The notes under the pieces: generated by a model | The model's database searches: none | Seen by the model: only the letters and a program-made list of their open reading frames with translations | What the model was told of the DNA's origin: nothing | NCBI RefSeq assembly: GCF_014640195.1 | Contig: NZ_BMGM01000008.1 | Coordinates: 1 to 64,000, forward strand | Source: Psychroflexus planctonicus | GTDB taxonomy: Bacteria > Bacteroidota > Bacteroidia > Flavobacteriales > Flavobacteriaceae | Reading direction: 5' to 3' | Length of the DNA stretch: 64,000 nt | Shown here: piece after piece, positions 5,371 to 7,410 of the stretch | Layout of the letters: each line of letters begins with the position of its first letter | Numbering within the stretch: position 1 is the stretch's first letter | Made by a program: the position numbers and the translations under genes

Positions 5371-5378
5371 TATCTTTG
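5371..5378 (+). promoter_or_regulatory. -7 promoter box TATCTTTG of tyrS
   Basis: A perfect TAnnTTTG box. Its final TTG (5376-5378) opens the longest frame of tyrS but cannot be translated from a transcript starting just after it. The ATG at 5397 is the first usable start and leaves a leader of roughly 15 bases. Confidence 0.65.
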
Positions 5379-5396
5379 CACGAAAATTTGAAATCG

Positions 5397-6689
5397 ATGA
5401 AAAAAGATTTTTTTGAAGAAGTAAACTGGCGTGGAATGGTTCACGATGTAATGCCCGGATTACAAGAACATTTAAATGAAAATATGCGAACTGCCTATGT
5501 TGGTATTGACCCAACAGCAGACTCTTTACATATAGGTCACTTAGTTGGGGTTATGCTTTTGAAGCATTTTCAACTTTCGGGACACAAACCCATAGCTTTA
5601 ATAGGCGGTGCAACAGGAATGATTGGCGATCCATCTGGGAAATCTAAAGAACGTAATTTGTTAGATGAAGAAATCTTACAGCACAACCAAAATCAAATTA
5701 AAAATCAATTACAGAAGTTTTTAGATTTCAATGCTGAAAATAATGCTGCCTTAGTAGTTAATAATTACGACTGGATGAAAGATTTCAGTTTTATTGATTT
5801 TATTCGTGATATTGGTAAGCACATTACAGTAAATTATATGATGGCTAAAGATTCAGTTAAGAAAAGACTTTCTTCAGAATCTACCGAAGGTATGAGCTTC
5901 ACAGAATTCACCTACCAATTAGTGCAAGGCTATGATTTTGTTCATTTAAACCAAACCCAAAAATGTACTTTACAAATGGGTGGAAGCGATCAGTGGGGAA
6001 ATATTACAACTGGAACAGAAATGCTTCGGAAAATACACAACCAAAAAGCATTCGCTTTAACTTGCCCGTTAATAACCAAGGCAGACGGAACAAAATTTGG
6101 TAAAACCGAAGGTGGTAATATTTGGCTTGACCCTAATCGAACTTCACCCTATAAATTTTACCAATATTGGTTGAATGTTTCAGATGAAGATGCTGCCAAA
6201 TTCATTAAAATATTTACGCTTTTAGATAAAAAACAAGTTTCAGATTTAATAAGCGAACACAATGAAGAGCCGCATTTAAGGAAGTTGCAGAATGTTTTAG
6301 CAGAAGAAGTAACTTTAATGGTTCACTCTAAGGAAGCTTTAGATAATGCTAAAGATGCATCTAAGGTGTTGTTTGGAAAAAGTACATCTAAGGATATTGA
6401 AGCTTTAGATGAAAATACATTTTTAGAAATTTTTGAAGGAATACCGCAAGCTAAAATTTCCAAATCTGAATTTGCTCAAGGAATTGACATGGTAGGTGCA
6501 CTAGCTGCAAAAACTTCTTTTTTGCCATCCAATTCAGAAGCAATTCGAGCGCTAAAAGCCAATTCTATTTCAGTAAACAAGAATAAAGTTACACAAGATT
6601 ATAACTTATCAGATACCGACTTGCTAAACCAGAAGTATGTTTTAATAAATAAAGGAAAGAAAAATACGTACTTAATTATAGTAGAATAA
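5397..6689 (+). CDS. tyrS: Tyrosyl-tRNA synthetase
   Basis: This class I aminoacyl-tRNA synthetase charges tRNA-Tyr with tyrosine. The 430-residue protein shows the HIGH signature (HIGH at 45-48), the tyrosine-binding GGSDQWGNI segment, the KMSKS-equivalent KFGKT and a C-terminal S4-like RNA-binding domain over roughly the last 75 residues ([18 protein letters not shown]). Its length fits bacterial TyrS. The start was moved to ATG 5397 because the upstream TTG lies in the promoter box. It is transcribed alone. Confidence 0.97.
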
Positions 6690-6704
6690 AGCAAGGGATT
6701 CTTA

Positions 6705-6778
6705 TAAAAACAAAAGCCCAAACTATAAAGTTTGGGCTTTTGCATTAACTAACCAATCTATATGAAAAATTCATATGC
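6705..6778 (-). ncRNA. Candidate small RNA 1 (tandem pair)
   Basis: On the minus strand a perfect -7 box (TATATTTG) is followed by about 74 bases ending in a terminator with U5. The predicted RNA has a first hairpin (ATATGAA-loop-TTCATAT, plus-strand 6760-6776), a conserved single-stranded TAGATTGGTTAG, then the terminator hairpin with a perfect 13-base stem (6711-6723 / 6730-6742). The promoter, first hairpin and linker closely match candidate RNA 2. Single-base length differences between the copies break any shared reading frame, which argues for RNA rather than peptide conservation. Ends are inferred. The terminator hairpin may also serve tyrS from the other strand. Confidence 0.6.
6711..6742 (-). 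terminator. Terminator of candidate small RNA 1; possibly bidirectional with tyrS
   Basis: A perfect 13-base stem (CAAAAGCCCAAAC with its complement) has a six-base loop. On the minus strand it runs into GTTTTTATAAG, while the plus side has only the four T of the arm. It therefore fits minus-strand termination better, though it lies 21 bases after the tyrS stop. Confidence 0.75.
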
Positions 6779-6780
6779 TG

Positions 6781-6788
6781 CAAATATA
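6781..6788 (-). promoter_or_regulatory. -7 promoter box TATATTTG of candidate small RNA 1
   Basis: A perfect TAnnTTTG on the minus strand, with no protein gene downstream before the terminator at 6711-6742. Confidence 0.6.
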
Positions 6789-6853
6789 GTTTTAATGTTG
6801 TTCTGTTTGTAATAAGTGGGGTTAAAATACCTATAATGTTATATAAAAGTACC

Positions 6854-6921
6854 TAAAAAAAGAAAGCTCTGAACGAGCGTTCAGAGCTTTCTAACCAATC
6901 TATTATGAAAAACTTCATCCA
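6854..6921 (-). ncRNA. Candidate small RNA 2 (tandem pair)
   Basis: The unit has the same organisation as candidate RNA 1. A minus-strand TATATTTG box is followed by an ATGAA-loop-TTCAT hairpin, the shared TAGATTGGTTAG linker and a terminator with a stem of at least 13 bases and U7. A TTG lies exactly 19 bases upstream of the -7 box, the expected -33 element and spacing for Bacteroidota sigma factor. A 21-codon ATG frame exists in this copy only and is not preserved in copy 1. The predicted length is about 68 bases. I do not recognise the family. Confidence 0.65.
6861..6892 (-). terminator. Terminator of candidate small RNA 2
   Basis: A perfect stem (AGAAAGCTCTGAAC with its complement) closes a tight GC-rich loop. 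On the minus strand seven T follow, while on the plus strand there is no T run. It is therefore a minus-strand terminator with no protein gene of its own. Confidence 0.85.
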
Positions 6922-6924
6922 CTA

Positions 6925-6932
6925 CAAATATA
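6925..6932 (-). promoter_or_regulatory. -7 promoter box TATATTTG of candidate small RNA 2
   Basis: A perfect TAnnTTTG on the minus strand with TTG 19 bases upstream, matching the -33/-7 layout of the phylum. Confidence 0.65.
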
Positions 6933-7001
6933 AAACTGATTTTGAATTTACCAACATGATGACTGTTAAACAAAAGTTAAAAATAAATTCCATTTAAAAA
7001 A

Positions 7002-7031
7002 ATAAGCTTCAAATATTAGTTTGAAGCTTAT
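7002..7031 (-). terminator. Terminator of the CBM48 gene
   Basis: A perfect 12-base stem (ATAAGCTTCAAA with its complement) has a six-base loop. It is followed on the minus strand by a run of T, and lies about 85 bases past the minus-strand stop at 7117. Confidence 0.75.
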
Positions 7032-7116
7032 AAATCATATTGTTATATAAATTTATTCTTTTGTAAAAATCTGATATTTGTTTCAACTAATCCCGAGTTG
7101 AATACCTAGCTAAATA

Positions 7117-7410
7117 TTATAAAACAAGTATGCTATTTTCTGTTGCATATTCATTAAATACTTTTGCATCTGCTTCATCATCGTTAGCCCAGTGCCCATC
7201 AATTATGTATTTAAATTCGTATTCTTTGTCCTTTTCAAGATTAATAGATCCTTTAAAGACACCATTTTTTAACTTTCTTAATTCAAAGCTGTTTTCATTC
7301 CAATTGTTAAAATCTCCAGCAACTACTACTTTCTCAGCTTCTCGTTGAGTAACATGAAAAGTTACTTTACAAATTGGTTTTGTCTTTAAATATTGTTTTT
7401 TAATTGCCAT
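7117..7410 (-). CDS. Stand-alone CBM48 / AMPK-type glycogen-binding domain protein
   Basis: The 97-residue protein is essentially one isoamylase N-terminal early-set domain (CBM48). Visible family features are VTFHVTQ, the sugar-contacting GDFNNWN, a K-G-V-F-K-G-S strand, and YEFKYIIDGHWANDDEAD with its conserved Y-I-I-D-G-x-W. Such domains bind alpha-glucans and are normally attached to branching or debranching enzymes. Here the domain is alone and no glycogen gene is nearby, so its partner is unknown. It has its own terminator and is probably monocistronic. Confidence 0.85.
   Translation of the reverse strand: MAIKKQYLKTKPICKVTFHVTQREAEKVVVAGDFNNWNENSFELRKLKNGVFKGSINLEKDKEYEFKYIIDGHWANDDEADAKVFNEYATENSILVL

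Follow-up and report, generated by a model that had tools for sequence, protein, structure and literature searches.

What do the two short minus-strand units that lie between tyrS and a CBM48-type gene of Psychroflexus planctonicus encode, and on what might they act? The window analysed here is a stretch of 64,000 nucleotides (contig NZ_BMGM01000008.1, positions 1 to 64,000), and we found no literature report on this locus. The initial annotation had described two tandem, homologous small RNA genes, 144 bases apart, with, in one unit, a TTG exactly 19 bases upstream of the -7 box. The raw sequence agrees: boxes (144 bases apart), hairpin arms, identical linkers (TAGATTGGTTAG, 142 bases apart) and U-tailed terminators are present in both units, here called A and B, and the TTG belongs to unit B. 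The features of the region are the following.

5376..6689, plus strand: tyrS, conserved convergent neighbour (tblastn, 61-76% identity beside a homologue at about 50 loci)
6706..6776, minus strand: sRNA gene of unit A, predicted transcript of ~70 nt, tail-to-tail with tyrS (R1 model 32.8 bits, E 1.9e-7; synteny)
about 6706..6744, minus strand: intrinsic terminator of unit A, with U run (fold of the whole unit, -26.2 kcal/mol)
6749..6760, minus strand: TAGATTGGTTAG linker, putative seed, of unit A (sequence; identical in 4/4 paralogues)
6760..6776, minus strand: hairpin arms AUAUGAA/UUCAUAU of unit A (sequence)
6781..6788, minus strand: TATATTTG, -7 box of unit A (sequence)
6855..6920, minus strand: sRNA gene of unit B, predicted transcript of ~65 nt (R1 model 36.2 bits, E 1.7e-8)
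about 6855..6891, minus strand: intrinsic terminator of unit B, with seven U (fold; the terminators of homologues covary)
6891..6902, minus strand: TAGATTGGTTAG linker, putative seed, of unit B (identical in 4/4 paralogues, near-invariant among homologues)
6905..6918, minus strand: AUGAA-loop-UUCAU arms of unit B, which include the putative anti-start sequence UUUUUCAU (sequence; fold -2.0 kcal/mol)
6925..6932, minus strand: TATATTTG, -7 box of unit B (sequence; same position in Psychroflexus homologues)
6952..6954, minus strand: TTG, -33 element of the unit B promoter (sequence; exactly 19 bases before the -7 box)
7000..7031, minus strand: separate terminator hairpin 3' of the CBM48-type gene (sequence)
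7117..7410, minus strand: CBM48-type gene (Pfam AMPK1_CBM match)

The terminator hairpin at 7000..7031 follows the CBM48-type gene and isolates unit B from upstream transcription; tyrS may use the terminator of unit A as well, read from the opposite side. The ATGAA-loop-TTCAT hairpin of the earlier description is the one element that stands only in part. Its arms are present, but the hairpin taken by itself folds weakly (-2.0 to -3.3 kcal/mol), and among close homologues, most of which have the AUGAA/UUCAU arms, changes occur on one side only (AUGAA to GUGAA), the arms being missing in others. With so weak a fold and one-sided variation, pairing of the arms is possible, though unproven.

The pair is confirmed, but it belongs to a family of four paralogues at tyrS and luxE, which had gone unseen. 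The 3.11 Mb genome contains five exact matches to the 13-mer ATAGATTGGTTAG, one inside a coding sequence and four in the sRNA architecture, the latter as two tandem pairs, namely units A and B and a pair on contig C6 (copies C and D, at 186710 and 186866, minus strand, span 186704-186893). The contig C6 pair is flanked by a luxE-like gene and by an M42-type peptidase gene, whose product shares 94% identity with its P. salis counterpart. With a sequence-only model of the 5' part, the four copies score 32.8-38.9 bits (E 2e-9 to 2e-7) and the next-best place in the genome 15.1 bits; this gap and the number of 13-mers in the same architecture make the tandem units more than a chance resemblance. 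Every one of the four copies has a TAnnTTTG promoter box. The same 5' model finds three copies in another genome of the genus (G174), two of which form a tandem pair with a spacing of 216 bases, and tandem duplication has arisen independently in G174, in P. aestuariivivens and in an uncultured Psychroflexus.

Outside the genus, the 5' model was run against 249 genomes of Flavobacteriaceae and gave 12 strong matches in seven genomes, plus a tail of weaker ones, some of them diverged copies with a terminator behind them, the others sites antisense to ATGAAAAA gene starts. A scan of named genomes identified terminator-bearing copies in at least Psychroflexus, Mesonia, Salegentibacter, Christiangramia (Gramella), Gillisia, Zhouia and Ulvibacter, and in others. 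Using the TyrRS of the window as tblastn query, we located copies directly 3' of tyrS, in convergent orientation, at about 50 loci. The gene on the other side of the sRNA encodes an acyl-protein synthetase of the LuxE family, and the usual order, tyrS> <sRNA <luxE, is observed in Psychroflexus, Mesonia, Salegentibacter, Christiangramia, Gillisia and many further genera. In the region 3' of tyrS of about 60 further genomes, related elements (GGTTGGTTAGTT plus a terminator) are present in many more genera; none was detected there in the eight genomes of one genus, possibly Flavobacterium, in three Bacteroidaceae or in another family of the same order. The present genome has units B and A at tyrS and the other pair at luxE; in P. 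salis there is still a pair beside luxE, and in P. maritimus each of the two sites holds a single copy. This is most simply explained by an array that once lay between luxE and tyrS and was split by a rearrangement in this clade. The sequence comparisons thus point to a real and conserved multicopy sRNA family of the Flavobacteriaceae. At six loci in other genera, an additional family copy lies 3' of a gene whose protein ends, where readable, in a ..FRNQGDLVEE-like sequence, and this site is a second conserved location for the family.

The family is absent from Rfam 15. At gathering score, neither the window nor 18 homologous loci gave a match to any Rfam model, and phage records gave no match. 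Weaker Rfam matches (MicC, AgvB, ohsC, Thr leader etc.) were rejected as terminator matches far below threshold. The Flavo-1 motif of Rfam occurs in flavobacteria, like the present units, and had been named as a candidate; this suggestion is not supported, since Flavo-1 has no match at gathering score in the window and, even at E<=10, is not among the 33 matches in 6600-7120.

Terminators are present in 36 of the 37 strict homologues: 32 pass an automatic test, which only one of 35 control windows passes, and in four of the five failures a hairpin is plain to see, its U run being short. Among these 37 distinct sequences there are 35 distinct terminator cores. To assess covariation, we aligned 17 copies from Christiangramia, Salegentibacter, Gillisia and relatives; one member supplied the structure, and no covariance model was used to fit the alignment to it. 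In this alignment, 97.9% of the terminator-stem cells are paired, falling to 55-66% when the partner is slid by one column, and nine of the eleven pairs show two-sided changes; the covariation value is 0.686, against 0.280 for shuffled and 0.17 for slid columns. The terminators thus differ in sequence but stay paired, as expected under the structural constraint that had been proposed from the two units of the window. Linker, promoter and diverged but still paired terminators together uphold the reading of two homologous tandem sRNA-type genes.

We propose, with a probability of about 0.62, that units A and B are independent genes, each specifying a trans-acting sRNA of 65-70 nt that blocks translation starts in a FopS-like manner. 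The sRNA would be transcribed, in the Psychroflexus-like clade, from a sigma-A type promoter and would end at the intrinsic terminator, and its conserved 5' region (UUUUUCAU..UAGAUUGGUUAG) would be the base-pairing seed. This putative seed reads as the reverse complement of a Bacteroidota/flavobacterial translation start (CUAACCAAUCUA..AUGAAAAA), so that the RNA would most likely block ribosomes at start codons. The blocked starts would belong to a subset of exported-protein mRNAs, as for FopS in Bacteroides, the candidates being 5' regions of exported-protein genes with AACCAAU/CUAACUAACC near the AUG. The copies presumably derive from duplication of one ancestral gene between luxE and tyrS, and they may act redundantly.

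Bacteroides FopS is an sRNA of about 65-70 nt, encoded in several copies, which pairs at the start codon and blocks SusC translation, a block that RbpB antagonises (PMC11697453). The present units resemble it in predicted length, in multicopy occurrence, in a sigma-A type promoter, in a single intrinsic terminator directly after the putative seed, in the complementarity of this seed to start regions and in the 5' seed blocks UUUUUCAU..AGAUU..GGUUA, which follow in the same order. They differ in that the spacing of the seed blocks is shorter by about three bases, twice, in a weak 5' hairpin arm and in the fixed tyrS-luxE location; moreover, no RRM_1/RbpB gene was found in seven carriers of the family, and no excess of SusC targets was found here. 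In the present units, the seed region is predicted to be partly self-paired.

These likenesses, which the initial annotation had not noted, raise the possibility that the units are true distant members of FopS, descended from a common Bacteroidota ancestor and working in the same circuit, with RbpB and SusC targets. The FopS covariance model (RF04319) aligns end to end with unit B, with the blocks GUUUUUCAU, UAGAUU and GGUUA co-linear with FopS, and its best place in the present genome is paralogue C; the scores, however, are 23.2 and 24.8 bits against a gathering score of 56. This score was not reached in any of 16 genomes, and the top RF04319 matches of the other carriers lie elsewhere. Among 396 genomes of the class, a loose seed pattern repeated with one conserved spacing is seen only in FopS-bearing families and in the present genus, while matches in the other genomes number no more than three, are scattered and have unrelated spacers. 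Nevertheless, the seed similarity to the FopS consensus is marginal in close homologues (10-115 of 4000 shuffles align at least as well) and not significant in the most diverged flavobacterial members. RRM_1 (PF00076) has no match in seven carrier genomes, in a search whose control in Bacteroides was positive, and the tyrS genes of three Bacteroidaceae have no such neighbour. We therefore rejected membership of RF04319 (23-25 bits against 56, and no RbpB-type RRM gene in the seven carriers) and regard common descent within the same circuit as unlikely; convergence on the same kind of target explains the resemblance to FopS as well as common descent does. GibS (RF04182), a Bacteroides sRNA that shares the R1 seed with FopS, has a model that reaches 16.3 bits on the present region, against a gathering score of 115, and covers the 3' half only.

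A role in cis on tyrS was also considered, in which the convergent RNA would bind the tyrS 3' UTR or disturb tyrS transcription, both genes sharing the hairpin as a bidirectional terminator. The tail-to-tail placement beside tyrS, conserved across many genera, speaks for it, but the linker, rather than the part overlapping tyrS, is the most conserved; copies C and D are placed on another contig, far from tyrS, and relatives have further copies elsewhere. In addition, each unit has its own promoter, and in unit B the U run is 3' of the hairpin on the minus strand only, which makes a cis element improbable. Several copies per genome and tandem arrays are also what a dispersed repeat, or a terminator-bearing mobile sequence with no RNA function, would give; we consider this very unlikely, because orthologous location and promoter spacing are conserved, stems covary rather than being copied, no transposase is found among the neighbouring genes and the copies number only three or four. 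A gene for a very short peptide, starting at AUGAA(G/A)UUU and read as MKFFHNRLVS in 11 homologues, can be dismissed, since T-run indels break the frame across 50 homologues into 23 different peptides from a 5' ATG or GTG, with lengths from 4 residues to 12 or more and one of them reading MKFS, and the frames run into the terminator. The same indels sustain the earlier remark that the sole possible peptide frame is broken between the two units, and in relatives it is the linker, not a protein frame, that is near-invariant. Own promoter, own terminator, intergenic position and an unconserved frame, all found here, are the general characteristics of an intrinsic-terminator sRNA.

Regarding the targets of the proposed start-blocking sRNAs, pairing of the linker with 997 start regions, taken from stretches of about 1.2 Mb or some 40% of the present genome, shows no excess over shuffled linkers (top-20 mean -20.5 versus -20.0 +/- 0.5). 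The complement CTAACYAACCA-ATGAAA occurs at 18 gene starts in the 249 genomes, against 11 for the reversed control, which is not a clear excess, and no clear complement was visible by eye at the SusC/TonB-plug gene starts of the present genome. The start-codon half of the seed is missing from some homologues (AAGAAAAAUUAAUUUUUAGUUGGUUGGUUAGUU type). Weak model matches elsewhere are in many cases antisense to exported-protein starts of the ATGAAAAA type. In three lineages, including Aequorivita, the gene start of a twin-arginine exported protein (MKNTTSRRLFMRNSAF..) reads CTAACTAACCAA(A)(A)TTATGAAA. As judged from these letters, this start is nearly the complement of the sRNA linker and would be the best single lead to a target; the protein has no Pfam match, and no orthologue was found within the 40% of the present genome read.

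TAnnTTTG, which we take to be the sigma-A type -7 box of Bacteroidota, is found 17-27 bases upstream of the seed in 19 copies of the Psychroflexus clade, and in seven of these 19 promoters a TTG precedes it by exactly 19 bases, against a background of 3.3%. At the corresponding place upstream of the tyrS-linked sRNAs, many other genera have GTAAG-N15-17-CG[AT]C (eight loci listed), which looks like an ECF-type promoter. The promoter type seems, according to these motifs, to have changed within the family, being ECF-like in other genera and of sigma-A type in the Psychroflexus clade. The Rfp sRNAs of Flavobacterium psychrophilum, such as Rfp11 under the SM6 ECF-type promoter (PMC9723704), are likewise independent flavobacterial sRNAs, and many homologues of the present family carry the ECF-like motif; the two groups are set side by side by description only, and the eight genomes mentioned above, possibly of Flavobacterium, have no such neighbour of tyrS. 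We tentatively suggest, as a broader picture of less than even odds, that widespread multicopy anti-start sRNAs at tyrS-luxE block exported-protein starts in Flavobacteriaceae without RbpB, in parallel with FopS or anciently related to it, and passed from an ECF-type to a housekeeping promoter in the Psychroflexus clade.

To our knowledge, regulatory RNAs are barely known in Bacteroidota outside Bacteroides. The present family offers an exact orthologous locus (tyrS-luxE) in many culturable marine genera and, together with the conserved seed and a set of homologues for a covariance model, this makes its function testable in several organisms together. Most Bacteroidota mRNAs have no Shine-Dalgarno sequences; if the anti-start reading is true, start-codon-directed multicopy sRNAs would be a phylum-wide regulatory habit of such Shine-Dalgarno-less bacteria, and, if the action is FopS-like, controlling translation starts by sRNA would be a solution general to the Bacteroidota. 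The apparent promoter change inside one family would also provide a testable case of sRNA regulon rewiring.

Two further observations were made in related genomes. Three genera share a lipoprotein gene whose short leader, ACCCAAATCTATT, is the same in each; it stands ahead of ATGAAAAA, a TATATTTG box lies a short way upstream, and part of this leader is complementary to the sRNA 5' end. Mesonia, Galbibacter and Salegentibacter have a different conserved intergenic element, in which TTTTCATTGATTGGTTAGTTA is placed inside a long inverted repeat, ACCCGAAAAAAGGAAAG..CTTTCCTTTTTAGGGT, and AAAGTCCTGTAAGGGAAGGGTATTCTTAA comes after the repeat.
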